This document shows positions 5,946 to 32,799 of a stretch of DNA of 33,225 bases, one piece after another (position 1 is the first letter of the stretch; each line of letters starts with the position of its first letter). Made by a program: the position numbers and the translations under genes. Location: positions 25,442 to 58,666 of IMG/VR virus record IMGVR_UViG_3300033153_009805. The stretch is one strand, 5' to 3'. The notes under the pieces were generated by a model, which was not told the DNA's origin, ran no database searches, and was given only the letters and a program-made list of their open reading frames with translations. Source of the stretch: a virus.

Positions 5946-6351
5946 TATCAACATCCAATCCAACAATATGTACGTACCTTATATCACACACTTTAACTTT
6001 TCCGTCAATAATCATATTAGAAAGACGAGTAACCACTTTACCAAGAACTGACTTACCAGCAATCAAATCCAATTCTAATTCTACGCCAAGATCATTTTGA
6101 AGAGTTTCGATACTAAACATTACCTCTTTGTCGCCGGTAACAAAAGCATCTATAACAATATGACTTACTTCCTCCTTGCTGATCTTTAATTTCACAATAT
6201 TGTATGATCCACAGATCGTACGATTTCTTATTTTCTCCCTAAACGATGGCCTAGTAAAAAGTTCTATAATATTTTCACTAGTATAAATATAACCACTTTT
6301 ATATGCCGGATAATCAAGAGCAATATTAGTATGTATACTGAATCGCGACAT
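5917..6351 (-). CDS. Hypothetical protein downstream of purZ (144 aa)
   Basis: The ATG at 6351 overlaps the TGA stop of purZ (TGATG), so translation is probably coupled to PurZ. The protein is mixed alpha/beta with an acidic C-terminal tail (residues 132-144). No catalytic motif, metal site or membrane segment is visible, and I do not recognise the family. Its tight coupling makes it a candidate partner in nucleotide metabolism, but this is inference from position only. Confidence 0.7.
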   Translation of the reverse strand: MSRFSIHTNIALDYPAYKSGYIYTSENIIELFTRPSFREKIRNRTICGSYNIVKLKISKEEVSHIVIDAFVTGDKEVMFSIETLQNDLGVELELDLIAGKSVLGKVVTRLSNMIIDGKVKVCDIRYVHIVGLDVDNESSDIETD

Positions 6352-8606
6352 CAATCTTTATACCAAACATGTCCTATACCAGGTCCAGTACCCACTAACG
6401 CAACAGGAATTCCAATCGCAGTTTCTAGATCAACAATGAAATCTCTAACTTTCCTAGGAAGCAGGTCTAGATTATACAGATACCCACCAGTCTGGAAACA
6501 TTCATAATCTAAATAATTCGCAAAATTCAAGGCAATCTTAGTAGCCCCATTGACTCTACAAGCCCTCTTTACCTGTTCCATAGAAAACGTGAATACTCTA
6601 CGAACTCTCTTAGTAACAGTAGTAATCTCCTGTAAATCGTAATCAGAAGGATATCCAGACAATTTTCTAATATCGGCCCATGACATCTCGGCCTGATCAT
6701 CATAAACATCTCCAGAATATCCAACAATTTTACCATTCTCAACCACATTGCCGACACGAATAGGATACGGCCTAACAACAACATATACATCACCAACCAC
6801 CGACGGAGCTAATCCCATATCCATCAGTTCACGAGATACTGTACACTCACGACTAGTGCAATTTTCAACATTAAAATATCCAGCATGATTAGAAACAAAA
6901 TAATTATGGCAATCTTTAATTTCAATATTATATGTAACATTGTTGTGTCTAAATTTCTTTTTAACTTCAACAACATCGACAATTGTTTCTATATCAGATA
7001 TCAAATTATCTGAAGCTAAAGACCACGAAATGTCGTATTTGTCTGGCATCTTATATTTCATACATGGCGAAATATAAAATTTGATATTTTCAAAGAACTT
7101 GTCATGACAAGTTCTTGAAAGTCTTAAATAATATTCATATTGACCTTCTAATTTCTCATTATTATATCGTTTGGGTCGTTTGTTTACCGAAAAATTTAAG
7201 TTAAATTTAGAATTCAAACAATCCGCTAATTGTTGATTTTCTTCTTTTGTAAATCCTTGAGAATGCATAAAAATTTCTTGACCATTACAAGCCAATTTAT
7301 ATTGACCATCATCTTGATACCATATTGCAATTCCTGCCCATTCAATATCTTTAATTATTGCATTAATATTTGGTCTCTTAACTCCAAAACAACCATACCT
7401 TTTAGCTAATTTTTTAATGTTATTTCTATAAGCAGATTCATATCGTATATGGTTATTCCCTTCTTTAAATGAACTTTTACTAGTAATAATATTTCGCATC
7501 CCACCAGCAGTATATGATTCCATTATAGCTGCTTTATCACGACAATAATTTTGCTGCTTTTCACAATGCGAAAAAGAAAACTGCGCTCTTTTAGGTGATT
7601 TAAACACATTACAAACAGTGCCATCACCAAGCATAGAACCAAGAAAAACCTGCAGGGCTCCCCCTGTAATTTTATGTTCTAAAGTATAAATTTCATCACC
7701 TGATACCAATTCATCAACTCTTTTAAGACCATTAGTTGTTTTAACTTGGTGATTACCAGTCAATTTGGGGCCATACCAAGATTTATCATGTGGTGCATAC
7801 ACTGATGTTTCTGTGATAATATTGTACCATTTTCTGTCTAACAAATCACTTTTATGCCAATTAACAATCTTCCCAGACACAATATGGCCATCATTATCAA
7901 GACATTTCACTTTAACATCCAGTTTATTGTTGACTATTTTGCCTATTGCCATAGTTGTATTGTCATCTAATAGCACTTTAGATTGATAAGACAAACAAAA
8001 AGGATAATGGCTACCATGAAGCATTCCAAGGCTAAAACCCTGGCTTCCTTCGTGCAACCACATCCGATTATTGTCCAACAGACTGTGAATTTCCTCAAAC
8101 CAATCATCTACAATCATCTCAGAAATCTCTGGAATATCTCTGGCAAGCTTTACAGTTGGTCCGCGCATCAAACGTTCTACCTGAACAGCACCGGATCCCT
8201 GCATAGTCGAGGCAATATGCTTAGTACTTTGTTTAACCGACTTCTCCCCTCTTTCTATAGCAGCATGTTCATCGGTTACAACCATTGTCCTAGGATGAAT
8301 CCTGACTTTAGATGGTTCAATATCACATTCATTCATTTCTTTCAACAGTTGTCCAATTCTAAACCCAGCCCCAGGCCCAATATATGCTTTGATATTTCGT
8401 CCGAATTTGTTTAAGAACATGTTTACTGGCAATATCTTAGAAATAAACGAAGTGCCGCCAACAACTATTGTATGTCCAGCATTTGGCAAATTATTAGTAC
8501 TAGCAATGCCAATCTCCCATCTATTACCTAAAAATCCGGCTATTAAGCCCTTGCCACAACTGCCCCATTGACCATCGACTACTATATTCAGTTTTCCTGT
8601 TTCCAT
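6351..8606 (-). CDS. purZ: PurZ, 2-aminoadenylosuccinate synthetase, with in-frame intein
   Basis: PurZ joins dGMP and aspartate using ATP, the committing step to diaminopurine (Z) deoxynucleotides. The 751-residue precursor holds a 372-residue synthetase (1-203 and 583-751) split by a 379-residue intein. The N-terminal motif GQWGSCGKG has Ser16 where cellular PurA has its catalytic Asp; this change marks phage PurZ. NAGHT follows at 42-46, and EGSQGFSLG at 186-194. After splicing, the junction reads YPF/CTSREC, matching, from memory, YPYCTSRDC in vibriophage PhiVC8 PurZ. The late TTVTKRVRRVF and GTGPGIG segments also match. The start is ATG with GAGGG upstream, 20 bases from a TATAAATA element. 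A host-type PurA role is less likely because of Ser16 and the closer match to phage PurZ. Confidence 0.95.
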   Translation of the reverse strand: METGKLNIVVDGQWGSCGKGLIAGFLGNRWEIGIASTNNLPNAGHTIVVGGTSFISKILPVNMFLNKFGRNIKAYIGPGAGFRIGQLLKEMNECDIEPSKVRIHPRTMVVTDEHAAIERGEKSVKQSTKHIASTMQGSGAVQVERLMRGPTVKLARDIPEISEMIVDDWFEEIHSLLDNNRMWLHEGSQGFSLGMLHGSHYPFCLSYQSKVLLDDNTTMAIGKIVNNKLDVKVKCLDNDGHIVSGKIVNWHKSDLLDRKWYNIITETSVYAPHDKSWYGPKLTGNHQVKTTNGLKRVDELVSGDEIYTLEHKITGGALQVFLGSMLGDGTVCNVFKSPKRAQFSFSHCEKQQNYCRDKAAIMESYTAGGMRNIITSKSSFKEGNNHIRYESAYRNNIKKLAKRYGCFGVKRPNINAIIKDIEWAGIAIWYQDDGQYKLACNGQEIFMHSQGFTKEENQQLADCLNSKFNLNFSVNKRPKRYNNEKLEGQYEYYLRLSRTCHDKFFENIKFYISPCMKYKMPDKYDISWSLASDNLISDIETIVDVVEVKKKFRHNNVTYNIEIKDCHNYFVSNHAGYFNVENCTSRECTVSRELMDMGLAPSVVGDVYVVVRPYPIRVGNVVENGKIVGYSGDVYDDQAEMSWADIRKLSGYPSDYDLQEITTVTKRVRRVFTFSMEQVKRACRVNGATKIALNFANYLDYECFQTGGYLYNLDLLPRKVRDFIVDLETAIGIPVALVGTGPGIGHVWYKD
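6861..7997 (-). mobile_element. Intein in PurZ with LAGLIDADG-type endonuclease domain
   Basis: The intein is residues 204-582 of the PurZ precursor. It starts with CLSYQSKVL, a canonical block A with Cys1. A block B-like TGNHQVKT (TxxH) lies at 283-290. The C-terminal block F reads IEIKDCHNYFV, and splicing ends at Asn582 before Cys583. Two LAGLIDADG-like motifs, FLGSMLGDG (321-329) and GIAIWYQDDG (425-434), bracket the central endonuclease region. The penultimate residue is Glu581 instead of the usual His, a known but minority variant. Removal restores an uninterrupted PurZ active-site segment. Confidence 0.95.
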
Positions 8607-12668: not shown

Positions 12669-13274
12669 CTATATTCCTAGTTCTGAAATGACATCAGGAT
12701 CTTCATAATACGAAATGAAAATCCATTTAAATTTATCTACATCCAATTTGCCAGAATCAACAGCAATAACGTAGTCGTATAGCTCATCCCAAGTACCAAA
12801 ATGACAATGAGACACATATTCGTCTAACGTAGATGCAACTTGCGCTGGAATCCAAGTACTAACCACGCCATCCGGCATATGAAACAATATTGGTTTGCCA
12901 GCATCAGTCGCTACCTTTAGTTCCTCAAGAGTACCAAATGTTGGTTTCTTAGGCAAATGGCATATCATGAAATTACAATCATGCGCAAATCTCAGATCGA
13001 TATCACGCACTTTTTTAATCCCATCATTAAATATATGCGACTCAACAGAATCTGCATATCCATCCTTAACTGCACTAGTAATCGCATCGTTATAAGTGCT
13101 AGGATGACACCCACCAAGATCCCCTAACCAACCCGGCTTAATTAACGGGTCATAAACCTTAATGTCGAGTGGCAGCAGTAAATTATTGGCAATGTCACGT
13201 CGCCATTTGCGCGGATCTTCGCTGTGATCAATCGATCCCGTCAAATAAACAGAAGATCCTTTTAATTTATTCAT
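12669..13274 (-). CDS. Nucleoside 2-deoxyribosyltransferase-like protein
   Basis: The N-terminal VYLTGSID (9-16) and a later MICHLPKKPTFGTLEELKVA stretch match the pattern of the nucleoside 2-deoxyribosyltransferase superfamily: a GSI loop, then a hydrophobic strand and GTxxE, where Glu117 or Glu118 would be the nucleophile. GKPILF follows as usual. Such enzymes move deoxyribose between bases or hydrolyse deoxynucleoside monophosphates. The protein (201 aa) is a little longer than the classical enzyme because of a C-terminal helix. An AGGTG site precedes the ATG. Substrate is unknown; in a Z-genome phage, base exchange on purine deoxynucleotides is a possibility to consider. Confidence 0.7.
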   Translation of the reverse strand: MNKLKGSSVYLTGSIDHSEDPRKWRRDIANNLLLPLDIKVYDPLIKPGWLGDLGGCHPSTYNDAITSAVKDGYADSVESHIFNDGIKKVRDIDLRFAHDCNFMICHLPKKPTFGTLEELKVATDAGKPILFHMPDGVVSTWIPAQVASTLDEYVSHCHFGTWDELYDYVIAVDSGKLDVDKFKWIFISYYEDPDVISELGI

Positions 13275-20965: not shown

Positions 20966-20973
20966 AATAGCTC

Positions 20974-21294
20974 CTATCTTAATAATGGTAAATTAGAAAA
21001 ATGCTTCCGAAGCTTTTTCTTAGAATCTGGATATACACCAATAGCCATAATACTATTGTGCCATGGTGGATCTGGTTCTCTAATTGATTTATGGGGAATG
21101 CCTTTTTTGATAAGGCGTTGTTCAATATCTAATAAATGTTGCTCATTTTTGGCAGCTAGAACTATAGCTATAGTGCCACTAGGAAGATTACCAGGGCTGC
21201 TTTCACCGGCCGCATGAACGAGTTGTGCCGAGATGGTTCCTAATGGGAGATCGCGTCTAATTATACAATAATGAGCTATATCATCCCAGCTCAA
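20974..21294 (-). CDS. Pth2-like peptidyl-tRNA hydrolase
   Basis: The 106-residue protein matches the Pth2 family pattern: YCIIRRDLPLGTISAQLVHAA at the N-terminus (parts: YCIIRRDLPLG and TISAQLVHAA), a central strand IAIVLAAKNE, KKGIPHKSI, and a late SIMAIGVYP strand. Pth2 frees peptidyl-tRNA stalled on ribosomes. This would help a phage that makes its own tRNAs. The start is TTG at 21294 with no strong ribosome-binding site; no in-frame ATG precedes the conserved N-terminus. The family is usually archaeal or eukaryotic, but phage members are known. A PTH2-fold protein with another role is the alternative. Confidence 0.75.
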   Translation of the reverse strand: MSWDDIAHYCIIRRDLPLGTISAQLVHAAGESSPGNLPSGTIAIVLAAKNEQHLLDIEQRLIKKGIPHKSIREPDPPWHNSIMAIGVYPDSKKKLRKHFSNLPLLR

Positions 21295-21312
21295 GGATTG
21301 GCTGTCAAGGCT

Positions 21313-21687
21313 TCATAATATACTATCTTTTAACCGAGATATCCCACCAACAGTTTCTCTTTCAATGTCTCCAAGATCTAATTCTACCCAATAAATCTCA
21401 AATGCAATACAATCTTCAAGCACCTCGAATTTATGCCATTGGCCAGGAGGGACTATAGTCTGTTCTCCAGGACCAACGATCGTTATATCATCTAATATCC
21501 CTGAGCCATAATCTTTAGTAACTATAATCTTAAGCTTGCCTTTTTCGACCAGAAACATATTAAATTTAGATTGATGGAAATGCTTCGAACAATACCCACC
21601 CCTACGGCCTTCTATTCTATGAATTTCAACATTGTTCTTAAAGAATACAGGACTAGTTTTGCCCCACACTTTACCGTGAATTTCCAT
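21313..21687 (-). CDS. Cupin-domain protein (124 aa)
   Basis: The start is ATG at 21687 with GAGG six bases upstream; the longer frame to 21723 lacks a site. Cupin motif 1 is seen as GGYCSKHFHQSKFNMFLVEKG (parts: YCSKHFHQSKFN, MFLVEKG) and motif 2 as PGEQTIVPPGQWHKFE (PGEQTIVPPGQWH). Two His in KHFHQ, a possible Glu and a late His could bind metal. The substrate is unknown; small phage cupins include sugar-nucleotide isomerases and dioxygenase-like proteins. It overlaps the end of the SbcD-like gene by 17 bases. Confidence 0.8.
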   Translation of the reverse strand: MEIHGKVWGKTSPVFFKNNVEIHRIEGRRGGYCSKHFHQSKFNMFLVEKGKLKIIVTKDYGSGILDDITIVGPGEQTIVPPGQWHKFEVLEDCIAFEIYWVELDLGDIERETVGGISRLKDSIL

Positions 21688-22729
21688 TGACCACCTCTTC
21701 GTTGAGTTTTTGAAGAAACTCAATATTTAATTTCTTAGGTTGATCATGTTTTAGCCATTTATCGAATAGATCTAATGGCGAATTGAGCGACAAATCTGAT
21801 TTGGATTGCCGATCATCAAGATCGATTTTTTCTTCTTTCATCTTCATAAATTTTATACTAGATACTCCACGCTTCGAGAAAGATTCTCTTATTCTAAACA
21901 ATTCATCTTTGCTATATTCACGATTTAATTGTATCCTAACATTGTCTCCATCAAGCTCTATATCACAATCCAACATATCATCAGTTAATGTTATATAACC
22001 TGGCGGCTTAGGACCTTCAATCAAGTCCAATTCAAATAAGTCAATAAATTTTATCTTGCGGGAATCAAGATCATATTCGATAAATCCATGCGATACCATA
22101 CCTTCATCAAACCTGAATGGTATTGGACTGCCAGGATACCAAACATTATCTCCGACTTTTTGTTTGCAATGGAAATGTCCAGCAAATACTATATCGAATT
22201 TTGAATTATCAAAATTTACTGTACTCCAATTCTTCAACATATAGCATTCATTTAGAGTAGCATTATGCACACCGATATGTGTTAGCAGCACATCTTTATC
22301 TTCATATAATTCCTCAACAGCTTCAACAATTTTCATATATACAGATTCAAAATGGATAAATGGCACAATCCAAAATCTGGAATTCAGAATATTAATGAGC
22401 TTTACTTCCTCAACAATAGTCGCAACATCATTAAGAAAATGTAAAGAATTGATATCCCAAGTATTTCTCATATATAAATCATGATTACCAGGAAACAAAA
22501 CCCATTGTTGACCATAAACATTCTTCGTCTCTGCCAAAAAGAGATATACCGCATTAAGGACTTCGATATTAATATTTTCTCTATCATGAAATAGATCACC
22601 AAGAACACAAACTATTTCAACATCGTTAATTTTCGCATATTCTCTAATATGCCTAACTGACCACAAAATATCATCAAGTTTTTTAGCTAACCCGAAATGG
22701 ATATCGGCCGTGATTATTATATTAGACAT
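21671..22729 (-). CDS. SbcD/Mre11-like nuclease (T4 gp47-like)
   Basis: Metal-dependent phosphoesterase acting with the SbcC-like ATPase on DNA ends. The calcineurin-like motifs are complete: ADIH (D9, H11), GDLFHD (D45), GNHD (N82, H83), H151 and GHFH (H185, H187). The 352 residues match phage gp47, with a C-terminal capping and partner-binding region. No ribosome-binding site is visible before the ATG. The next gene begins inside its last six codons, which suggests coupling. Confidence 0.95.
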   Translation of the reverse strand: MSNIIITADIHFGLAKKLDDILWSVRHIREYAKINDVEIVCVLGDLFHDRENINIEVLNAVYLFLAETKNVYGQQWVLFPGNHDLYMRNTWDINSLHFLNDVATIVEEVKLINILNSRFWIVPFIHFESVYMKIVEAVEELYEDKDVLLTHIGVHNATLNECYMLKNWSTVNFDNSKFDIVFAGHFHCKQKVGDNVWYPGSPIPFRFDEGMVSHGFIEYDLDSRKIKFIDLFELDLIEGPKPPGYITLTDDMLDCDIELDGDNVRIQLNREYSKDELFRIRESFSKRGVSSIKFMKMKEEKIDLDDRQSKSDLSLNSPLDLFDKWLKHDQPKKLNIEFLQKLNEEVVNGNSR

Positions 22730-22755
22730 ATTTTTTCATATACTAATATAATAAT

Positions 22756-22923
22756 CTAACAATGATGGTTTTTACTTCTAATCTTTTTATGACACCCAGA
22801 ACATTTTGGTCTCGATTTCCTAGCCCAATATTTATTAGGATCAATCGGGCCAATAATAGATCTAAGACGTTTAAGCCCCTTACAATTTGTATTACAAATC
22901 GGGCATCTAAATATACGAATCAT
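22756..22923 (-). CDS. Small zinc-ribbon protein (55 aa)
   Basis: The start is the ATG at 22923; the longer frame begins with TTG at 22941. CPICNTNC and CSGCHKK provide four or five Cys for a zinc ribbon, in a basic protein (many Arg/Lys, ending NHHC). It may bind nucleic acid. The ribosome-binding site (GAGAG) lies within a perfect inverted repeat (22924-22955), so its translation may depend on RNA folding. Confidence 0.65.
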   Translation of the reverse strand: MIRIFRCPICNTNCKGLKRLRSIIGPIDPNKYWARKSRPKCSGCHKKIRSKNHHC

Positions 22924-22955
22924 ATAAATACTCTCTTTCAATAAAGAGTATTTAT
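22924..22955. promoter_or_regulatory. Inverted repeat over the ribosome-binding site of a Zn-ribbon gene
   Basis: Two exact 11-base arms (ATAAATACTCT and AGAGTATTTAT) are separated by ten bases. The left arm ends one base before the ATG at 22923 on the minus strand. The arms also contain TATAAATA-like motifs on both strands. It could be an RNA hairpin that hides the ribosome-binding site, or a divergent promoter element. Confidence 0.6.
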
Positions 22956-22983
22956 CAGGTCATCTTAGATCTCCAGTTCATGA

Positions 22984-23068
22984 TGGATAACGGCAGATTC
23001 GAACTACATCCCCTTAAGGACCATCGGCTTAGCAAGCCGCGTTGAGACCCTTTCTCAACTCGTTATCC
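22984..23068 (-). tRNA. tRNA-Ser(GCU)
   Basis: Acceptor GGATAAC pairs fully with GTTATCC. The anticodon loop TTGCTAA gives GCT. A long variable arm (class II) and TTCGAAT T-loop are present, as expected for serine. The D-arm is unusually stable, with seven pairs. Confidence 0.92.
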
Positions 23069-23072
23069 AATA

Positions 23073-23336
23073 TTATATTTCCATAAAATCAGCAATTTCA
23101 GATATGGCTTCTAAATATGGAGACTTCTTCGATCCGATTTCGCCTTCTGGACCTTCAGCAGTTTTAACTTTGTGGGTCTCTTTACCAGGATCCCTTGGTT
23201 CTTTCTGTTGCTCATGAGTATGTCCAATTATTTCGAATTTCTCATCAACATCCACTTCATCAACATCATCATCATCAGATTCATTGAAAATATCTGGATC
23301 TTCTGTGAGCCATTTGGCTATATCTTTAGGATTCAT
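23073..23336 (-). CDS. Acidic hypothetical protein (87 aa)
   Basis: An acidic protein with a dense Asp cluster at residues 21-32 (SDDDDVDEVDVDE) and a later Glu/Lys/Pro-rich segment. No fold or motif recognised. Acidic small phage proteins may mimic DNA or bind host factors, but nothing specific supports this here. It lies between two serine tRNA genes; its stop is five bases from the 5' end of tRNA-Ser(GCU). Confidence 0.65.
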   Translation of the reverse strand: MNPKDIAKWLTEDPDIFNESDDDDVDEVDVDEKFEIIGHTHEQQKEPRDPGKETHKVKTAEGPEGEIGSKKSPYLEAISEIADFMEI

Positions 23337-23363
23337 AACTTATTTTTATCTCGATACGATTGA

Positions 23364-23457
23364 CGGATAGCAGAGGATTTGCACCCCAAGTCCCGCTCAT
23401 CGCAGGACTCCCACGGTTTTCAAGACCGGTCCGGTACGCTTGCCCGATTTACCATCC
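23364..23457 (-). tRNA. tRNA-Ser(UGA)
   Basis: Acceptor GGATGGT pairs with GCTATCC (two GU pairs). The anticodon loop CTTGAAA gives TGA. A long variable arm with a five-base stem is present, and the T-loop is TGCAAAT. Its first base is also the last base of the TAG stop of the upstream gene. Confidence 0.92.
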
Positions 23458-23687
23458 TAATTTTCAACATCTTGACACCAACAATCCTTTTTAGAACATT
23501 TAGGCTTACCAGCATCGATCCAAGCCTGGTGAACCTCTGTTAAATGCCTAAATACATCAGCAAACATCTGTGCAGTGTCCTCTTGAGAACCAATTAATTG
23601 CTCAGGCATTATTTTTTGCGCTGATTTCATTAATTTTTGTGCTGATTTTCTAATAATAGGGAATGTGAATTTTTCAAATTCCTTCAT
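23457..23687 (-). CDS. Hypothetical protein with C-terminal Cys motif (76 aa)
   Basis: Start at ATG 23687 with GGAGAAG upstream; a GTG five codons earlier overlaps that site and is less likely. The protein is helical, with the repeat AQKLMKSAQKIM, and ends in CSKKDCWCQ, a possible metal site. Its TAG stop shares its G with the first base of tRNA-Ser(UGA). Family unknown. Confidence 0.65.
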   Translation of the reverse strand: MKEFEKFTFPIIRKSAQKLMKSAQKIMPEQLIGSQEDTAQMFADVFRHLTEVHQAWIDAGKPKCSKKDCWCQDVEN

Positions 23688-23730
23688 AATGAGCTTCTCC
23701 ACTGGTTATGAATATTTTGCAGGATCTATA

Positions 23731-23805
23731 TGGGACCGATCAGATTTGAACTGATGGCCTCTGCTTTATCAGAGCAGTACTCTACCCAAACTGAGCTACG
23801 GTCCC
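23731..23805 (-). tRNA. tRNA-Ile(GAU)
   Basis: Acceptor GGGACCG pairs fully with CGGTCCC. The anticodon stem CTGCT/AGCAG encloses CTGATAA, giving GAT. D-arm and T-arm (ATCAG, TTCAAAT, CTGAT) are canonical. Its first base coincides with the last base of the upstream gene's TAG stop. Confidence 0.95.
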
Positions 23806-24149
23806 TAAGTATATAATCGCCCATCCTTACTATAATAATTGATCGTGCGATCAAATAAATTATTTTTGGATACACAAACAGCATTCTTAGTTATAGGATC
23901 AGTATTAATAATATTGCTGGCCGGAATGCCCCTATTAAAACATACCCAACCAGATCCATCTTGATATTGATTATGATCAATTACTCCAACATCATCAATA
24001 GTATTGCTAGTTAATTGATCTACGATATTGGTTTTATGTCTTTCCGACAATACTACGCTTTTAGTATCTCTAACAGTTTTCTTGATCTCCGCCAAATCGA
24101 ATTTAGCTGGAGTCCTATCTGCCTTATTGCGTCTCCAGAATTTGAACAT
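23805..24149 (-). CDS. Hypothetical protein (114 aa)
   Basis: ATG at 24149 with GAGATAATT upstream, directly following the coiled-coil gene. A basic N-terminus (FKFWRRNK) precedes a helix, then a beta-rich Asn/Asp-rich second half. No motif recognised. The stop TAG shares its G with tRNA-Ile, so the tRNA 5' cut would fall at the end of this message. Confidence 0.65.
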   Translation of the reverse strand: MFKFWRRNKADRTPAKFDLAEIKKTVRDTKSVVLSERHKTNIVDQLTSNTIDDVGVIDHNQYQDGSGWVCFNRGIPASNIINTDPITKNAVCVSKNNLFDRTINYYSKDGRLYT

Positions 24150-24151
24150 AA

Positions 24152-24334
24152 TTATCTCACTAACTTTCTAATAGTCTTCTTTAATTGATCATAGTCGCTT
24201 TTTAGCTTCTTATGATCTTTTTCTAATCTCTTATGATCTTTTTCTAATCTCTTGTAGCGTTGTATCATAATATTGAGATCACGCCTCAATACCTGATTTT
24301 CATAAAACAATTTATTAGATTCGCTGTCTGGCAT
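24152..24334 (-). CDS. Small coiled-coil protein (60 aa)
   Basis: ATG overlaps the TAA of the preceding gene (TAATG), with GGAG seven bases upstream. From residue 13 it is one continuous coiled coil, with the repeat KRLEKDHKRLEKDHKKL. It probably forms a dimer or trimer and may serve as a spacer or adaptor. Family unknown. Confidence 0.7.
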   Translation of the reverse strand: MPDSESNKLFYENQVLRRDLNIMIQRYKRLEKDHKRLEKDHKKLKSDYDQLKKTIRKLVR

Positions 24335-24948
24335 TATAGCTCTCCCAACATCCGTTCCCTGAATTGTCTTTCTTTATTAGATAATTTTCCAGAATCCAAT
24401 TCAGATCTAAATTTTTCTTTAAGATAATCAGTGTGGCTTCGCATTATCTCCACAACTTTATGTATAGATATTGGCTTATAATTATGACAATCAACACCAA
24501 CATCCATAGCAAGACAATCATCTAAAGCTTTGCGACCATATTGCTTAGTCATAGTCCCATGTACATGGCCAAATAAATGCCACGATCCTCGATGCGATTT
24601 ATTCCAAGTCCTCATCGGATAATGCATCAATATAATCTTTTTCTTGAACAATTTTAATTCTTTATAATTTTGAATACTATAGAATCCACCAAGAGAATTA
24701 TTCACACACCTATCGTGATTACCACAAATCAGATGAATTCTTCCATTCAATCTACTTAAATAATCTCTAGGATCACCACGACCCATCCGAAAATCACCAA
24801 GATGCCAAACCTCGTCTTTGAGCTTAACTGTATTATTCCAATTATTAATTAATGCCTCATCCATCTCAGCAACAGAATGCCAAGGGCGTTTACAATACTT
24901 TATGATATTGTAATGTCCAAAATGAGTATCACTAGTAAAAAATATCAC
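24334..24948 (-). CDS. Calcineurin-like metallophosphoesterase (204 aa)
   Basis: A second phosphoesterase, distinct from the SbcD-like one. Motifs: SDTHFGH (D7, H9), HLGDF, CGNHD and LFGHVHG, all present. Single-domain, small proteins of this kind are common in phages and may act on nucleotides or 2',3'-cyclic ends. The start is GTG at 24948 in a purine-rich context; no in-frame ATG fits the conserved N-terminus. The C-terminal 35 residues are charged and helical. Substrate is unknown. Confidence 0.85.
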   Translation of the reverse strand: MIFFTSDTHFGHYNIIKYCKRPWHSVAEMDEALINNWNNTVKLKDEVWHLGDFRMGRGDPRDYLSRLNGRIHLICGNHDRCVNNSLGGFYSIQNYKELKLFKKKIILMHYPMRTWNKSHRGSWHLFGHVHGTMTKQYGRKALDDCLAMDVGVDCHNYKPISIHKVVEIMRSHTDYLKEKFRSELDSGKLSNKERQFRERMLGEL

Positions 24949-24995
24949 TCCCTTTACTTTCCTTTCTCATTCAAATTAGTTTAAATTAAATATTA

Positions 24996-25067
24996 TCCTA
25001 GGACCGGGATTCGAACCCAACCTTCAACGTCCACAGCGTTGCGTGCTTCCAATTACACTTTCCTAGG
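24996..25067 (-). tRNA. tRNA-His(GUG)
   Basis: Acceptor CCTAGGA pairs fully with TCCTAGG. The anticodon loop CTGTGGA gives GTG. The T-arm is TTGGG, TTCGAAT, CCCGG. The base before position 1 is T, not the encoded G-1 usual for histidine tRNAs, so G-1 would not come from the gene. Confidence 0.9.
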
Positions 25068-25070
25068 AAA

Positions 25071-25142
25071 TAGGCGTAGCAAGATTCGAACTTGCATTGC
25101 TGGTTCCGTAGACCAGTGTCTTATCCATTAGACGATACACCC
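25071..25142 (-). tRNA. tRNA-Arg(ACG)
   Basis: Acceptor GGGTGTA pairs with TACGCCT (two GU pairs). The anticodon stem CTGGT/ACCAG encloses CTACGGA, giving ACG, which needs A34-to-inosine editing to read CGN codons broadly. T-arm GCAAG, TTCGAAT, CTTGC. Confidence 0.93.
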
Positions 25143-25197
25143 ACACATCCTAACATCCTAACTACTAGATCAGGTACTTAAAATGAAATACAATGAA

Positions 25198-26346
25198 TTA
25201 TTTTGTACAAATTGTCTTGATCAAATAAGCAACAGCCTCATAAGGATCTATATTAGCACAAGGCCGGCGATCCTCAATATATCCTTTACCATTTTGCTCA
25301 ACATACAATGGTATCCTAACAGAAGCAGTGCGGTCGCCAATGCCATATTTAAATTGATTATAAGAACATGTCTCACAAGCCCCAATTAACCTACGCTCAT
25401 ATCCATAACCATATTGCTTTGGGAAATTTGGAGCATCATAAATATGTTCTTCATTAGGACTATTATCCATTAAGATATCGGCGACTGGAATACCTGTAGC
25501 CGCATGCCCCAATCTTCTACAAGCTTTATGACAATCTTCCAAACCACCATCATCCCTCATATCGCTCGTAGAAAAATTAATATGGGCACCAGCACCATTC
25601 CATTCACCAACCACTGGTTTCGGATCTAACCTAATAGTAATGCCGCGACATTCACCAAGACGATATAAAATATATCTAGCCAGCCATATTTCATCAGAAA
25701 CATTTATAGCACTAGAAGGTCCAATTTGGAATTCCCATTGGCCAGGCATAACCTCAGCATTAGCACCGGAAATATTTAAACCAGCCTTGATACAAGAATC
25801 TAGATGTCTCTTGATGAGTGGACGACCAAAAACCTCATCAGCACCAACGCCGCAATAAAACGGCCCCTGTGGTGGTGGAAATCCTTTATCAGGCCATCCT
25901 AATGGCCTACTACCTTCAAACAAAGTATATTCCTGCTCAATACCAAATAGACATCTATGAACACCATAATCTTTTTCTAATTGTGCAACAACGGATCTGG
26001 TATTTGTTTCATGCGGACGACCATCTATATCAAGCACCTCACATAAAACCAATATACCATCCTCACATAAAGGATCAAATATAACTCTTACTGGATTAAG
26101 AATACGATCTGACAACCTAGATGATACAGGAGGAAATGGTGCTTGGTAAGTGCTAGAAGCATCAAAAGCCCATAATTTGATATATTCATAAATGAACATA
26201 TCATTAACTAATAAAGAACTTCCAATATCGCACCATACATCATTCTTATGATAACAAGAATGGATAATTTTAGTTTTAGACCGCAATTTCTTAGTTGGCT
26301 TTGATCCATCAATCCAAATGTATTCAGCTTTTATTGAATATTTCAT
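25198..26346 (-). CDS. Type II glutamine synthetase (GSII)
   Basis: Makes glutamine from glutamate, ammonia and ATP in the cytoplasm. The 382 residues carry the GSII signature: AEYIWIDG (7-14), FDASSTYQAP (61-70), GIEQEY (135-140, metal-binding Glu), NAEVMPGQWEF (196-206), GAGAHINFST (251-260), YERRLIG, DRTASVR and GYIEDRRP (355-362). This eukaryotic-type family is not the usual bacterial GSI. A short extra segment lies at about 281-313. No ribosome-binding site exists outside the upstream tRNA: ATG begins two bases after tRNA-Lys ends, so initiation may use the GGA of its acceptor stem or a leaderless message. It may supply glutamine for purine and pyrimidine synthesis. High confidence in family, low in purpose. 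Confidence 0.95.
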   Translation of the reverse strand: MKYSIKAEYIWIDGSKPTKKLRSKTKIIHSCYHKNDVWCDIGSSLLVNDMFIYEYIKLWAFDASSTYQAPFPPVSSRLSDRILNPVRVIFDPLCEDGILVLCEVLDIDGRPHETNTRSVVAQLEKDYGVHRCLFGIEQEYTLFEGSRPLGWPDKGFPPPQGPFYCGVGADEVFGRPLIKRHLDSCIKAGLNISGANAEVMPGQWEFQIGPSSAINVSDEIWLARYILYRLGECRGITIRLDPKPVVGEWNGAGAHINFSTSDMRDDGGLEDCHKACRRLGHAATGIPVADILMDNSPNEEHIYDAPNFPKQYGYGYERRLIGACETCSYNQFKYGIGDRTASVRIPLYVEQNGKGYIEDRRPCANIDPYEAVAYLIKTICTK

Positions 26347-26347
26347 A

Positions 26348-26420
26348 TGAGTCCAGAGGGATTTGAACCCTCAACCCCCTAATTAAGAGCCAGGTGCTAT
26401 ACCAATTTAGCTATGGACCC
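26348..26420 (-). tRNA. tRNA-Lys(CUU)
   Basis: Acceptor GGGTCCA pairs with TGGACTC. The anticodon loop CTCTTAA gives CTT; stem CCTGG/TTAGG has two GU pairs. T-arm GAGGG, TTCAAAT, CCCTC. The glutamine synthetase ATG follows its 3' end after one base. Confidence 0.92.
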
Positions 26421-26430
26421 CGCATTTATA

Positions 26431-26883
26431 TTAAAATATTGAAACATTGAAATGTTTGAACATTTCAAGTTGATTTTTATATGTTATTCCATCAAACGAT
26501 GATACATGTATTAAATTATTTATTTTCATCTTAGCATCATCAATAATTATATAATCATCAACCTCAGGATGCCTACTAAGCCATTCATTAATTTCTATCG
26601 GTCTATCAACCATAGAATGCTTAACAAGATCTTTTGTAGCCCAATCTTCATGTAAATATTCTTTTTTTATATTATTTAATTCAAGAATTTTCACCATCCT
26701 ATCATAGCCACAAGTGCGCCAAGAGCTTGAAATGATTATGCTAGCTCCAGATTCATCAGCTAACCGCTTGACAGTTTCAACAGCTACAGGATCAAATCTC
26801 TCCGTTCGATTATCAATCCAGCCTAAAACAGACGCTCTAAATGGTACCATAGGGCCATCAAAATCCAAAAATATTACTTTCAT
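26431..26883 (-). CDS. HAD-like phosphatase (150 aa)
   Basis: DFDGPMVPF (7-15) is HAD motif I with D7 and D9; ISSSWRT (around 51-57) is motif II, and YIIIDDAKM holds the acidic motif IV. It resembles the short HAD family found in nucleic-acid repair fusions ('Swiss army knife' RNA repair proteins) and in phages. It may remove 5' or 3' phosphates from nucleotides or RNA ends; the substrate is unknown. It starts 11 bases after the 3' end of tRNA-Arg(UCU) with no ribosome-binding site, and ends just before tRNA-Lys. Confidence 0.8.
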   Translation of the reverse strand: MKVIFLDFDGPMVPFRASVLGWIDNRTERFDPVAVETVKRLADESGASIIISSSWRTCGYDRMVKILELNNIKKEYLHEDWATKDLVKHSMVDRPIEINEWLSRHPEVDDYIIIDDAKMKINNLIHVSSFDGITYKNQLEMFKHFNVSIF

Positions 26884-26893
26884 ACAAATAAAA

Positions 26894-26966
26894 TACCCCC
26901 GGCAGGATTCGCACCCGCATAAAACAGTTTAGAAGACTGCTGCCTAATCTATTCAGCCACGAGGGC
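26894..26966 (-). tRNA. tRNA-Arg(UCU)
   Basis: Acceptor GCCCTCG pairs with CGGGGGT. The anticodon stem GCAGT/ACTGT encloses CTTCTAA, giving TCT. The T-loop is TGCGAAT. Reads AGA/AGG, common codons in AT-rich phages. Confidence 0.93.
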
Positions 26967-27008
26967 TAGGAAGAATCATAATCAGAATGATCCGCTAAAT
27001 AACTAATT

Positions 27009-27293
27009 CTATATAAACGATATAGTATTATTAGAATTTGTAGCATTACTATCAAATCGAAGTTCTTGTTCCGGGCACCTATTACATATACCATAATCTA
27101 TCAAATCATCAATATCTAATTCCAAATTAATCCAAGGCCCAGATATATGATATCCACAATAACGACATATAATTGTCGGCTTTACCGTACCATGACCATC
27201 ACAAAATTCACAAATCATAAGCGCAGGATAATCTGAAAAAATTGTTAATTCAAAATCATATCCTTCACCGCAACAAAATGGACATTCAATCAT
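27009..27293 (-). CDS. Zinc-binding protein with CxxCxGxG-like repeats (94 aa)
   Basis: Four Cys pairs are seen: CPFCCGEGY, CEFCDGHGT, CRYCGYHIS and CNRCPEQ. The first two resemble the DnaJ zinc-centre repeat (CxxCxGxG). The protein may be a small RNA- or protein-binding zinc protein. It starts ten bases after the 3' end of tRNA-Leu(GAG) with no clear ribosome-binding site. Family not assigned. Confidence 0.7.
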   Translation of the reverse strand: MIECPFCCGEGYDFELTIFSDYPALMICEFCDGHGTVKPTIICRYCGYHISGPWINLELDIDDLIDYGICNRCPEQELRFDSNATNSNNTISFI

Positions 27294-27302
27294 ATTAAAT
27301 AC

Positions 27303-27376
27303 TGGGCCGAACGGGATTCGAACCCGAAACCTCTTGGTCCTCGACCAAGCGCCTCTGCCAATTGGACTATCGACCC
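27303..27376 (-). tRNA. tRNA with GAG anticodon (Leu by code), short variable loop
   Basis: Acceptor GGGTCGA pairs with TCGGCCC. The anticodon loop TCGAGGA gives GAG, but C instead of U precedes it. D-arm GTCC..GGC and T-arm TCGGG, TTCGAAT, CCCGT are canonical. The variable loop has only five bases, unlike class II Leu tRNAs, though the gene resembles the CAA tRNA at 28647. Confidence 0.85.
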
Positions 27377-27378
27377 AT

Positions 27379-27449
27379 CTGGCCCGCCAGGATTTGAACC
27401 TGGACTAAAGGATTCAAAGTCCTTTGTGCTACCATTACACAACGGGCCA
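27379..27449 (-). tRNA. tRNA-Gln(UUG)
   Basis: Acceptor TGGCCCG pairs fully with CGGGCCA. The anticodon loop CTTTGAA gives TTG; T-arm CCAGG, TTCAAAT, CCTGG. Two bases separate it from the next tRNA. Confidence 0.95.
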
Positions 27450-27482
27450 TTAAAATTATCAAAAATAATCGTTAGATTCACA

Positions 27483-27566
27483 TCCGCCGCCTGGGAATCG
27501 AACCCAGCCGCTCCTTAAGAGTCCTGGTTTACAGCCAGGATGCCATCCATAGACTACTAACGACGG
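27483..27566 (-). tRNA. tRNA-Tyr(GUA)
   Basis: Acceptor CCGTCGT pairs with GCGGCGG. The anticodon stem CCTGG/CCAGG encloses CTGTAAA, giving GTA. A long variable arm is present, as in bacterial Tyr tRNAs. The gene begins directly after the TAA stop of the DUF5664-like gene. Confidence 0.93.
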
Positions 27567-28004
27567 TTAGATATCATCTAATTCTTTAGATAATTTACCC
27601 TGCTTAATCATCTCTTCAGTATGAAGCAAACAATGTATATTCCATAACCAAGCAGCAAGATGATCTTCCTCATCCTTTCCCATTAACCAATCAAGACTAT
27701 GCCTAGTAGCCGAATTGAAGAATACAGAAAGAGGCATTCCCTTTTCCCAATTTCGAACACCATATTTTCTAGCGCCACGTTCCATGTGAACTGCTAAGCG
27801 CCTCAAAACATATGGTGATAAAAGGTGGAAGAAACCTTTATCCTCTTGTATATCGCGCTGAGCACCAGATTCAAACGTTTCTTTTGAACCAGAATCTGTT
27901 ATTCTGGTTTTCTCGACTACCTCATCTTTACCCCATAAATCTTTCTGAATCTCTTCATACGATTTTTGCAGAATAATATGAGGGTCATCTTTTTTTGTTA
28001 CCAT
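27567..28004 (-). CDS. dATP/dGTP pyrophosphohydrolase-like protein (DUF5664), MazZ candidate
   Basis: The true start is ATG 28004 (AGGTG six bases upstream); the frame runs on through the upstream tRNA, which is not coding. The 145-residue protein has GARKYGVRNWEKGMPLSVFF (77-96), then ATRHSLDWLMGKDEEDH (99-115) and AWLWNIHCLLHTEE. This matches the DUF5664 family, annotated as the N-terminal dATP/dGTP diphosphohydrolase domain and related to proteins found with purZ in Z-genome phages. In that pathway a pyrophosphohydrolase turns dGTP into dGMP, the PurZ substrate. The residues are consistent with an all-alpha pyrophosphatase fold. Activity is inferred; the link to purZ is by family and genome only, as the genes are 19 kb apart. 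Confidence 0.75.
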   Translation of the reverse strand: MVTKKDDPHIILQKSYEEIQKDLWGKDEVVEKTRITDSGSKETFESGAQRDIQEDKGFFHLLSPYVLRRLAVHMERGARKYGVRNWEKGMPLSVFFNSATRHSLDWLMGKDEEDHLAAWLWNIHCLLHTEEMIKQGKLSKELDDI

Positions 28005-28032
28005 AATACACCTATATAGCATGAAATACAAC

Positions 28033-28105
28033 AACGGGCAGGAGAATCGAACTCCCGTCTCCTGGTAGACAGCCAGGTATTTTCCCATTAAACTACATGC
28101 CCAAT
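28033..28105 (-). tRNA. tRNA-Asp(GUC), acceptor stem irregular
   Basis: The anticodon stem CCTGG/CCAGG encloses CTGTCTA, giving GTC. T-arm GGGAG, TTCGATT, CTCCT is canonical. The acceptor does not fit a usual layout: ATTGGGC/GCCCGTT has one T-T mismatch and shifts the D-arm, whereas GGGCA/TGCCC gives five pairs but leaves the 3' side three bases short. It may be decaying or fold unconventionally. Confidence 0.75.
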
Positions 28106-28144
28106 TATGCTCTATTAATTTCTACGATTTATTATGGCGAAATC

Positions 28145-28169
28145 TGTCATATCACTAAATTATATGACA
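28145..28169. terminator. 8-bp inverted repeat, weak terminator candidate
   Basis: Arms TGTCATAT and ATATGACA are separated by nine bases just after the stop of the gene at 28171. No U-tract follows on the minus strand, so it may be an RNA-processing or stability hairpin. Confidence 0.4.
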
Positions 28170-28170
28170 T

Positions 28171-28443
28171 TTATTCTTCATTCTTAGGATCTAACCAACC
28201 ATCATAACCATCACGCTGCTCTTTCTCTTTTTCTTCTTTATCCTTAACCATTAATGCACCAATATTAATGATCTCTGCTATTTGAGAAAGAGCAATACTA
28301 ATATCGGAGAACGATGTTTTCTTACTAATACTTATAATCATATTCCCACCAGAGAATAATTCATTACAAGCTTTGAAAACCTTAGCGATAAATTCTTGTT
28401 TGCCTTCATTCAAGAAATGTGAATTAACATCTATCCTAGTCAT
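28171..28443 (-). CDS. Hypothetical protein (90 aa)
   Basis: Read from the ATG at 28443; a GTG seven codons upstream is also possible, and neither has a clear ribosome-binding site. The protein is helical with an Ile-rich middle and ends in a Lys/Glu-rich segment followed by YDGWLDPKNEE. No motif recognised. It follows tRNA-Gly in the same direction. Confidence 0.6.
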   Translation of the reverse strand: MTRIDVNSHFLNEGKQEFIAKVFKACNELFSGGNMIISISKKTSFSDISIALSQIAEIINIGALMVKDKEEKEKEQRDGYDGWLDPKNEE

Positions 28444-28509
28444 ATTATATGTTTGTGAGGGCACAACAAAAAAGCATAATCTTACAAATTATTATTATTT
28501 TCCTCACAA

Positions 28510-28581
28510 AGCGGATAGCGGGACTCGAACCCGCAACCTCCAGCATGGCAAGCTGGCACTCTCCCATTGAGCTACATCCGC
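28510..28581 (-). tRNA. tRNA-Gly(GCC)
   Basis: Acceptor GCGGATG pairs with TATCCGC. The anticodon stem CCAGC/GCTGG encloses TTGCCAT, giving GCC. T-arm GCGGG, TTCGAGT, CCCGC; discriminator base U, as in bacterial tRNA-Gly. Confidence 0.94.
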
Positions 28582-28587
28582 ATAACT

Positions 28588-28643
28588 CACGGGCAGCGAG
28601 GATTACACTCACCTGGATTTTCACCACTTTCGTATTTGCCCGC
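28588..28643 (-). other. Miniature tRNA-like element (about 56 nt)
   Basis: A seven-pair acceptor-like helix (GCGGGCA/TGCCCGT) encloses a T-arm-like hairpin (GTGAG, TGTAATC, CTCGC), a short hairpin TAC-GAAA-GTG in the D position, and a weak central stem-loop. It lies exactly between tRNA-Gly and tRNA-Leu(CAA). It lacks the TTC T-loop. It could be a decayed tRNA or a true reduced-arm tRNA. Confidence 0.5.
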
Positions 28644-28646
28644 AAA

Positions 28647-28721
28647 TAGGCCGAGAGGGATTCGAACCCTCAATATTCAGCATCTTGAGTGCTGCGCCTC
28701 TGCCAATTGGGCTACCGGCCC
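28647..28721 (-). tRNA. tRNA-Leu(CAA), short variable loop
   Basis: Acceptor GGGCCGG pairs with TCGGCCT (terminal GU pairs). The anticodon stem CAGCA/TGCTG encloses CTCAAGA, giving CAA. T-arm GAGGG, TTCGAAT, CCCTC. The variable region is short, not the long arm of bacterial leucine tRNAs. The upstream gene's last ten bases, including its TAG stop, lie inside this tRNA. Confidence 0.88.
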
Positions 28722-28951
28722 TTACTGATCTTTCTTATATCTGTTAAAGATATTTTATTATATATATTAACAAATTTTCCAAAAATACAAGTACTAGTAG
28801 CACTGATATCTTGTGCTAATTCTATATCAATTTCGATCAATCCACAAACTTCACAAATAATATATCTAAAAGGTTTGAATGTATCACTGTCAATTATCAT
28901 CCCTAGATTGAATGCATCATCTTTACATTCTGGGCACTGGGTCATCTTCAT
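28712..28951 (-). CDS. Small zinc-ribbon protein overlapping tRNA-Leu (79 aa)
   Basis: CPEC near the start and CEVC in the middle form a zinc-ribbon pair. The rest is a mixed helix/strand sequence ending ISKGR. The ATG overlaps the TGA stop of the preceding gene (TGATG) and has AGG upstream. The final codons and TAG stop are formed by the acceptor and position 8-10 of tRNA-Leu(CAA). RNase P cleavage would remove the stop from the message, so tRNA maturation and translation of this gene exclude each other on one transcript. Confidence 0.65.
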   Translation of the reverse strand: MKMTQCPECKDDAFNLGMIIDSDTFKPFRYIICEVCGLIEIDIELAQDISATSTCIFGKFVNIYNKISLTDIRKISKGR

Positions 28952-29154
28952 CAGAATAACCTATTCAATCTGTCTTGGAACTGTCTAATAAGATCAAGTT
29001 TAAATTCTATTTTAGCATCTTCATCCATTTCAACGACACTACGCAATAAATCACCATTAATGGCGATTCCAACCACTTTATTCATTTGGAAATCTTGACC
29101 AACAACTGTTATACCCTCACCATGCGTAATTTCAAACAAAATATCTTTCGCCAT
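28951..29154 (-). CDS. Hypothetical protein (67 aa)
   Basis: ATG with AGGTG seven bases upstream, 12 bases after the tRNA-Asn 3' end. Two short beta strands (DILFEITHGEG, ITVVGQDF) are followed by a helix with charged residues. No motif recognised. It is coupled to the zinc-ribbon gene by TGATG. Confidence 0.65.
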   Translation of the reverse strand: MAKDILFEITHGEGITVVGQDFQMNKVVGIAINGDLLRSVVEMDEDAKIEFKLDLIRQFQDRLNRLF

Positions 29155-29166
29155 TTTTCACCTAAA

Positions 29167-29456
29167 CTCCGGCGCTTGGATTCGAACCAAGAACTTGGTG
29201 GTTACAAGAACCTATAATTTTCATTATAGCTTGGACTATATCATCATCCTTATGGATGCCGGGCGCTAATGTGGTTATTAAGAAGACTTAACTTCTCCAC
29301 TAGTCTCTGCACCTTCCGGAGGTGTACCTCCAGCTTGGCTCAGGATTGCCACCGACTAAACGCTGAGGTTCCCCTGAATTCACCCAGTTTTCGACTATCG
29401 TTACCGATAGAAGCTGCTTAACACAGCCACCTACTCTGCCATTGAGCTACGCCGGA
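29167..29456 (-). tRNA. tRNA-Asn(GUU) interrupted by a group I intron
   Basis: The exons are 29423-29456 and 29167-29204. Joined, they give acceptor TCCGGCG/CGCCGGA, anticodon stem GGTGG/CCACC and loop CTGTTAA, so anticodon GTT. T-arm CTTGG, TTCGAAT, CCAAG; discriminator G. The 218-base intron lies between anticodon positions 35 and 36. Confidence 0.93.
29205..29422 (-). mobile_element. Group I self-splicing intron in tRNA-Asn
   Basis: The conserved core elements appear in order: P at 29363-29380, Q (AATCCTGAGCC) at 29337-29347, R (GCAGAGACTAG) at 29300-29310 and S (GATATAGTCC) at 29233-29242; R and S pair through GACTA/TAGTC. P1 forms between exon GGCTGT and intron GCAGCT, with the expected U-G pair at the 5' splice site. 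The intron ends in G. It has no open reading frame, so any movement would need an enzyme in trans. Confidence 0.92.
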
Positions 29457-29460
29457 AAAC

Positions 29461-29505
29461 TGGCCACGACAAAATAAAAAAACCGCAATCTGACTCCCGT
29501 GGCCA
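29461..29505. repeat. Inverted repeat TGGCCACG with T-rich loop
   Basis: Exact 8-base arms are separated by 29 bases that include T7 on the minus strand. The arms match the core of the hairpin at 4434-4463. It lies immediately upstream of tRNA-Asn. It may be a terminator or processing signal, or a tRNA remnant. Confidence 0.6.
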
Positions 29506-29609
29506 CAACAGCCAGATCACAGAACTAACACAGCATTAGTATTTGATGCGAGGGAACATACGAAAGAGATTATTTGTTGCTCTACCATCTGAGCTACTCA
29601 CGAGCACCG
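29506..29609 (-). other. Non-coding stretch with tRNA 5'-half remnant
   Basis: From about 29603 downward, the minus strand reads like a tRNA 5' half: a position 8-9 TA, and a perfect D-arm GCTCAGATGGTAGAGC. No matching anticodon arm, T-arm or acceptor 3' strand is found, so it looks truncated or interrupted. The rest shows no gene. Confidence 0.5.
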
Positions 29610-29680
29610 CCCGTAAGGTGGGACTTGAACCCACGGCACACAAATTGTCATGAAGTAACTCTCCCTATCACTCCTCGCAA
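29610..29680 (-). other. Divergent tRNA-like element, possibly Met(CAU)
   Basis: A perfect T-arm (GTGGG, TTCAAGT, CCCAC) is joined to CTTACGG, which pairs in six of seven positions with TTGCGAG at the 5' end. The total is 71 bases. A TTCATGA loop with CAT could be a Met anticodon, but its stem has a mismatch and the D-arm is unclear. Confidence 0.5.
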
Positions 29681-29751
29681 TAAACCGCCCCGGAATCAAA
29701 CCGAGAAATGCCGACATACCCATCATCAACATTGTCTATCAAGACCAATCC
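29681..29751 (-). other. Divergent tRNA-like element abutting a stop codon
   Basis: The 71-base element starts directly after the TGA of the gene at 29752. The T-arm (CTCGG, TTTGATT, CCGGG) is good, and the acceptor GGATTGG/GCGGTTT pairs in six of seven. No clear anticodon arm is seen. It abuts the next tRNA-like element with no spacer. Confidence 0.5.
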
Positions 29752-29979
29752 TCAAACCTCACCAATATCTGAAATACATCTATCTACGAGTCTCTTGACC
29801 ATATCAGATTCAGAAACACCGATAATTCTAGCGAGATTTCTTAATTTCTCTATCACATCATCATCAAGTATAATTGGAACACATTTAACTGGCTTCTTCT
29901 CAAAATCTCCTATAGGGCCGGGCCTCGGCCTGGGGCCACGTGGATCAAATGGAACGCCATATTTCATAATATTCATCAT
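29752..29979 (-). CDS. Ribbon-helix-helix-like protein (75 aa)
   Basis: Start at ATG 29979 (GGA seven bases upstream), two bases after the stop of the fibre gene; a TTG four codons earlier is less likely. After a Pro/Arg-rich N-terminus, CVPIILDDDVIEKLRNLAR and IIGVSESDMVKRLVDRCI have the strand-helix-helix pattern of RHH DNA-binding proteins. It could repress phage transcription or bind DNA. Moderate confidence because the family is short and variable. Confidence 0.6.
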   Translation of the reverse strand: MMNIMKYGVPFDPRGPRPRPGPIGDFEKKPVKCVPIILDDDVIEKLRNLARIIGVSESDMVKRLVDRCISDIGEV

Positions 29980-29981
29980 AA

Positions 29982-30701: not shown

Positions 30702-30717
30702 ATGATATATTTACTAT

Positions 30718-30755: not shown

Positions 30756-30756
30756 A

Positions 30757-30832: not shown

Positions 30833-30852
30833 TTTATATTGACCACATTTAG

Positions 30853-31447: not shown

Positions 31448-31448
31448 A

Positions 31449-32137: not shown

Positions 32138-32150
32138 AAGTCTTATATAC
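32121..32150. repeat. Direct repeat copy A at the pyrF 3' end
   Basis: These 30 bases are identical to 32924-32953, offset by 803 bases. They cover the pyrF stop region and the flanking GGCCGGAC segment. A shorter match (gctcaccctc) recurs nearby at 32083 and 32903. Confidence 0.9.
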
Positions 32151-32799
32151 CTTTGCTGCTAATCTCATCATTTATCCTTTTGACAGCACTAAGACAATCG
32201 TCCGATTTAGTAATAGCTCTGCCGACTACCAAAAAATCAGCACCAGCATCAATAGCCATCTTCGGAGTCATGACTCTCTTCTGATCATCAACTTTGCCAT
32301 ACCATAATGGTCTGATTCCAGGACAGATCTTTTTAAAAGGATATATCTGTAACATAGTTGCTTCATGCGCCGAACAAACAATATAACCATAACCAGCTTC
32401 AGCAGCAAAAGATGCGAAACCTCCAACTGCATTATCAACACTCTTACCAAAGATCGATAAACATTGTTCATTATCAACTGAAGTTAGAATAGTAATTCCT
32501 GCTAATTTAGCAGCATGTTTCGACCTATAATTAGCGGCACAATGAACAGTAATTATATCTGCACCAGCACATAATGCCGCATTAATTCCGTTGTTCATAG
32601 TATTTGGTATATCAAACAATTTTATATCAGCCATTACGTTACCAAATCGTTTCAAAACACTGATAATTTGTGTACCATGATCTATTATTAAATCATTTAC
32701 CTTGAAGCCCCAAACATGATCTTGTACCTTATAGGCTATAGTTGTAGCATCTCGCTTAGATATACCATCTAACGATACTATAATTCTATTGTTTATCAT
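32143..32799 (-). CDS. pyrF: Orotidine 5'-phosphate decarboxylase
   Basis: Converts OMP to UMP, the last step of de novo pyrimidine synthesis. The catalytic motif DIKLFDIPNT (58-67) holds the Asp-Lys-Asp network; GFKVND (31-36) carries the other Lys, and ADFLVVGRAIT near the end binds phosphate. PGIRP lies on the loop over the active site. At 218 residues it has the size of bacterial enzymes. AGGA precedes the ATG. Phage-encoded PyrF is uncommon and fits a drive for nucleotide synthesis. A hexulose-phosphate synthase is excluded by the DxKxxDIPNT motif. Confidence 0.93.
   Translation of the reverse strand: MINNRIIVSLDGISKRDATTIAYKVQDHVWGFKVNDLIIDHGTQIISVLKRFGNVMADIKLFDIPNTMNNGINAALCAGADIITVHCAANYRSKHAAKLAGITILTSVDNEQCLSIFGKSVDNAVGGFASFAAEAGYGYIVCSAHEATMLQIYPFKKICPGIRPLWYGKVDDQKRVMTPKMAIDAGADFLVVGRAITKSDDCLSAVKRINDEISSKGI

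Follow-up and report, generated by a model that had tools for sequence, protein, structure and literature searches.

The locus and assignment of the gene

The window, the whole stretch of DNA analyzed here, comprises 33,225 nucleotides and corresponds to bases 25442-58666 of a 58,666-base IMG/VR virus record, a 58.7-kb fragment of an uncultured phage. The following features lie in the part of the window around the gene of interest:

25198..26346, minus strand: type II glutamine synthetase (GSII/GlnII-like), 382 aa (reading frame, Pfam, NCBIfam, PDB and fold model)
26348..26420, minus strand: tRNA-Lys(CTT), directly upstream of GSII
32143..32799, minus strand: PyrF, orotidine-5'-phosphate decarboxylase (profile matches)

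The GSII frame is read on the minus strand from 26346 down to 25198 (382 codons) in a region where the plus strand is full of stops, and its limits are exactly those given in the initial annotation. The best match in both sequence and fold was the glutamine synthetase (GS) of Streptomyces coelicolor (PDB 4bax). Specifically, 4bax matched residues 4-381 (E 3e-107), and the AlphaFold model of the window protein (pLDDT 86, pTM 0.88), which contains the N-terminal beta-grasp and the GSII fold, aligned with it at TM 0.81/0.89 over 380 columns. Pfam Gln-synt_C scored 54.6 bits, over its cut-off, and Gln-synt_N alone scored 17.8 bits, below its cut-off of 33.4. Among the viral proteins of BFVD, the fold had no convincing match, the best being an amidoligase (TM 0.30). 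These comparisons confirmed that the gene is a phage-encoded GSII by structural and phylogenetic family. It resembles the S. coelicolor enzyme in fold and in catalytic and metal residues, and differs from it in four changed near-invariant residues, three extra segments and its location in a phage. The NCBIfam GlnII equivalog has a naming cut-off of 500 bits, which was missed by both the window protein (425 bits, E 1.6e-127) and its canonical-looking relative L171 (480 bits); the function-level name GlnII is therefore not claimed.

The ATG of GSII follows the 3' end of tRNA-Lys after one base (26346-26348), a gap too short to hold a ribosome-binding site or a leader of its own. Processing of tRNA-Lys would leave a nearly leaderless GSII message. 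The gene lies within an array of 16 tRNA genes interspersed with small frames (19665-32062), 17 kb away from the PurZ gene of the window; the relative G051 carries approximately 40 tRNAs. Elsewhere in the window, positions 663-753 hold 91 bases that are missing from a near-identical contig, L168.

Conserved residues, insertions and predicted activity

Residues of the window GSII were evaluated in an alignment with GSII sequences of viruses (n = 80) and bacteria (n = 80). E137, E139, E198, E205, N250, G251, H255, R319, E325, R339, R344, E358 and R360 were all kept; based on general knowledge of the family, we take these to be ligands of metal, ATP and glutamate. Thus, at every ligand checked, the motifs for metal and nucleotide binding are preserved, as first proposed, but four other near-invariant positions are changed: G63A, which converts FDGSST to FDASST, G76S, and T321I and H324C, which convert the flap region RLTGxHET to RLIGACET.

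Columns were counted as near-invariant when 99% or more of 161 relatives agreed (n = 80). The window GSII retains 76 of these 80 columns (95%) at approximately 55% identity to its nearest relatives. As read from the alignment, this retention shows long-lasting constraint on the protein, which is therefore probably an active enzyme. As many or more near-invariant changes occurred in just one of the 161 relatives, making the window GSII the second-highest of 162 sequences. At the changed positions, L171 and L002 both carry the canonical residues. In the sister sequence L017, H324 is also altered, to Asn, and this site thus appears relaxed in the clade. A literature search on GSII flap residues returned nothing on the roles of the four changed residues, and an exact GSII pattern search of IMG/VR for near-identical strains, intended for dN/dS, found none.

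The protein contains three extra segments relative to the S. coelicolor enzyme:

26206..26247, minus strand: extra segment, residues ~34-47; low model confidence, partly common to relative L002
26125..26139, minus strand: private 5-residue insertion PFPPV, residues 70-74, right behind the FDxSST loop
25420..25497, minus strand: insertion-bearing variable loop at residues ~284-309, preceding the RL-G-ET flap

Only one internal insertion, at about residues 281-313, had been described initially; it is real, and those at ~34-47 and 70-74 are two more. PFPPV was absent from all relatives compared. The suggestion that the 281-313 insertion might abolish activity was addressed in part by comparison with L171, whose GSII has a different insertion in the same length-variable loop and keeps all flap residues. 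Thus, the loop insertion of the window protein is, on its own, no argument for loss of activity. Given the four changed positions and the three extra segments, an altered activity is possible, and the four changes place the exact activity in real doubt.

One form of altered activity would be that of a GSII-derived ligase, a gamma-glutamyl amide synthetase that couples glutamate to some other amine and might thereby serve to make a modified metabolite or base. Such a specificity would fit the four near-invariant changes, two of them in the flap, together with the private insertion behind the FDxSST loop and the score under the GlnII naming cut-off. We nevertheless consider it quite unlikely: the glutamate, metal and ATP ligands checked are all kept, the close relatives L171 and L002 are canonical at these residues, and a search for a dedicated amine substrate pathway found none.

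A second alternative, that the gene moved from a PurZ cassette to the tRNA array and is losing function there, would account for its displaced position, its want of a leader of its own, its rank in near-invariant changes and its longer terminal branch in the tree described below. Against this decidedly improbable alternative, 382 open codons and the conservation of near-invariant columns at this level of identity are incompatible with long neutrality, and the change at H324 is shared as a site with L017.

Phylogeny of the window GSII

The GSII tree was built from 48 sequences: bacterial, phage and two eukaryotic PDB stretches. The window GSII and the viral sequences L171, L002 and L017 formed one clade (support 100/98), in which the window sequence has a longer terminal branch; in an AU test, a clade of the window, L171 and L002 without L017 was not rejected (p 0.076). 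The four-member clade sits among bacterial GlnII and several separate phage GSII groups, and the starred branches of the tree require that the label switched between phage and bacteria three times or more. The eukaryotic rows, which are only the two PDB stretches, fall elsewhere.

A eukaryotic origin was ruled out by this position among bacterial GlnII and phage GSII. As placed by the tree, the window GSII is bacterial GlnII-like and not a eukaryotic acquisition, and the earlier term "eukaryotic-type" is correct as an old class name and not as a statement of origin. Phylogeny had also been proposed as a means to find the donor. It grouped the gene as described, but the nearest bacterial rows, which are Myxococcota-like, are weakly placed, so no donor is named.

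Occurrence of glutamine synthetase in phages

GS matches were present in 6 of 50,697 phage records, all metagenomic: four full-length matches came from records of 635-735 kb, and the two others, from faecal metagenomes, were weak. In IMG/VR, 130 stretches matched the window GSII. Published examples of GS as an auxiliary gene of phages come from nine moraphages (PMC12619734), jumbo phages (PMC13037316) and Antarctic viruses (PMC10721903), and it is among the phage auxiliary genes of an ocean virome survey cited in PMC9083009. Phage GS is thus rare in isolates and already known from metagenomes of uncultured phages. The description of the gene as very unusual for a phage is apt for isolates and annotated viral proteins, but not in view of the 130 IMG/VR stretches and the published auxiliary genes. 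The reported moraphage, jumbo, Antarctic and ocean genes are similar to the present one in that a GS occurs in large uncultured phages; unlike in the window phage family, no link to PurZ, PurB or Z-DNA is given in the available text of those reports.

PurZ and the Z-DNA gene set

Three further genes of the window are relevant to nucleotide metabolism:

6351..8606, minus strand: PurZ-like succino-aminoadenylate synthetase (GSCGKG; intein-interrupted)
27567..28088, minus strand: DUF5664/PF18909 dATP/dGTP diphosphohydrolase domain protein (profile matches)
12669..13274, minus strand: nucleoside 2-deoxyribosyltransferase (NDT)-like protein (weak match, below cut-off)

In the window PurZ, Ser replaces the catalytic Asp of PurA (GSCGKG), NAGHT and the Thr region are present, and the residues of the dGMP pocket agree with the pocket described in PMC8342488. 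The NCBIfam PurZ cut-off of 300 bits was not reached by the L171 gene (223), the L002 gene (220) or the intein-split window gene (198), although this model was the best-scoring one for the L171 and L002 genes. The intein (~6861-7997), which includes a LAGLIDADG domain, precedes the CTSREC motif, and the PurZ genes of L002 and L171 lack an intein at this site. Between PurZ and an exonuclease gene, the window contains a plus-strand gene (8674-10320) with repeated Cys-rich motifs and a nuclease-like look, which is missing at that place in L002 and L171.

The gene sets of Z-DNA (2-aminoadenine) phages include PurZ, with which synthesis of the base Z begins, DUF5664/MazZ, DatZ, DmtZ and DpoZ (PMC12884076, PMC8342488). 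The conversion of dSMP to dZMP, the step that PurB would catalyze, is assigned to the host in PMC12884076, which mentions neither glutamine nor PurB. The window shares with these sets a PurZ-type enzyme, a DUF5664 protein and an NDT-like protein. Unlike them, its family adds GSII, and the 185-kb relative G051 adds PurB and IMPDH and has a DNA polymerase III alpha-type enzyme, its Pol A match being partial only. The window record yielded no polymerase of the Pol I type. Because of these polymerase findings and the PurZ scores under the cut-off, we infer, rather than assert, Z-DNA in this phage family.

Gene order in related phages

L171 and L002 are located in records G051 (185,177 bases) and G001 (35,619 bases), respectively. 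Both records share genes with the window, including a structural protein (78-79%) and PurZ (~66%). Three phages of one family, including that of the window, have thus retained GSII, though at differing locations. In L171, one strand carries PurZ (10001-11104), a P-loop kinase-like ORF (11086-11625) and GSII (11634-12710). Similarly, in L002, PurZ is followed by one small frame and then GSII. This arrangement, in which a single open frame separates PurZ from a downstream copy of the same GSII gene in two relatives of the window phage, is a new observation.

G051 encodes NrdJ and ThyA, adenosine deaminase and a glutamine-hydrolysing AsnB (558 bits), the latter two above cut-off, as well as IMPDH, of the GMP branch, and PurB, both below their own naming cut-offs. 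G045, a phage record of 159 kb whose GSII is a different one, encodes a PurZ-type enzyme and a complete GuaA; an IMPDH-family gene lies close to its PurZ-type enzyme (L202, L188, L275). No class I amidotransferase (GuaA, CarA, PyrG, PurL) was found in the window, L002 or L171 records, which would leave use of the glutamine to enzymes of the host. A phage-encoded class I amidotransferase as the consumer was dropped as a candidate, such an enzyme occurring in 1 of 51 records.

Association of GSII with purine genes

Gene content was compared between GSII records and a control set of 41 ThyA-bearing records of similar length. ThyA was chosen as the control marker, as the SbcC-like protein had no relatives and NrdJ too few. 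PurA/PurZ-family genes were present in 10 of 49 GSII records. Among records that were 30 kb or longer and did not belong to the window family, they occurred in 8 of 43, versus none of the 41 controls (Fisher p 0.006), and IMPDH-family genes in 9 of 43 versus 3 of 41, which is not significant (p 0.12); the sets are phylogenetically non-independent and the records fragmentary, so these p values serve as guides. Outside the window family, only the PurA-family gene of G045 is PurZ-type, and the others read are PurA-type. GSII occurred in none of the 41 control records, a set without a positive record. Finally, only 6 phage records had any GS match, versus 106 with PurZ/PurA, which indicates that GS is not needed for Z-DNA.

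The pairing of GSII with PyrF, to which the initial annotation had given weight, did not hold: among the 47 records searched, 46 of which bear GSII, 3 had PyrF, and G051 lacks it. The broader proposal of a role in nucleotide synthesis is supported for purines by the proximity to PurZ in two relatives, the PurB, IMPDH and AsnB genes of G051 and the over-representation of PurA/PurZ, and falls away for the PyrF pairing.

Proposed role in purine synthesis

The position of PurZ and GSII almost side by side in two relatives suggests that the enzyme probably supplies nitrogen for purines, and a purine-specific role of the predicted GSII is likely. During infection, the enzyme would make glutamine from glutamate, ammonia and ATP. 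Judging from the neighbourhood and gene content, this glutamine would provide amide nitrogen for purine synthesis, above all through GMP synthetase (GuaA), a host enzyme; the GMP could then be converted to dGMP and, by PurZ, lead to 2-aminoadenine (Z) nucleotides. Asparagine synthetase, seen as AsnB in the relative, and other amidotransferases may be further users. Overall, our confidence is about even that this is a functional, somewhat diverged bacterial-type GSII whose main purpose in this family is to supply amide nitrogen for purines via GuaA, GMP and Z.

The chief rival of purine supply is a general supply of amide nitrogen without a purine focus, in which the glutamine mainly serves protein synthesis and amide transfer (AsnB, GlmS). 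The location of the window GSII in the 16-tRNA array and the large tRNA complement of the L171 phage are consistent with this, although tRNA arrays are common in large phages. The strong AsnB match in the L171 phage and the AsnB or GlmS-type genes of other GSII phages also point this way, as does the lack of both PurZ and PurA in the majority of GSII phages. General supply does not, however, predict the proximity of PurZ and GSII in two relatives or the enrichment of PurA/PurZ, and we regard it as somewhat unlikely.

Many hosts control their own GS, a GSI, by adenylylation, and in many bacteria GSI is under a different regulation from GSII. Being a GSII, the phage enzyme would escape this control on the host enzyme. 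The initial annotation had raised replacement of a host enzyme switched off during infection; such replacement, or that of a feedback-inhibited enzyme, without any pathway focus would be in keeping with the different regulation of GSII and fits all gene-content observations. As it does not predict the proximity to PurZ, we rate it as highly improbable next to purine supply.

Taken further, purine supply by GSII raises the possibility, less likely than not, of a large-phage family with an almost self-sufficient route leading from IMP to 2-aminoadenine nucleotides, comprising its own IMPDH, PurZ, PurB and ribonucleotide reductase, with GSII for nitrogen. In the Z-phage literature consulted, the host is credited with the steps that follow PurZ and with the entire nitrogen supply. 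If the proposed route exists, these would be Z-type phages with a dedicated nitrogen supply. A family with its own nitrogen assimilation, one member of which also has PurB and IMPDH, would suggest that purine and nitrogen flux limits base replacement in large phages, and for at least one lineage the scattered reports of phage GS would be linked to a definite pathway.

The gene for PurB (adenylosuccinate lyase) in the PurZ-bearing relative lies at L183:18406-19767 (G051:151406-152770). Separately, L185:2721-5038 of G051 contains a nicotinamide/nicotinate phosphoribosyltransferase beside an NMN adenylyltransferase-Nudix-like gene, a pair pertaining to NAD supply.
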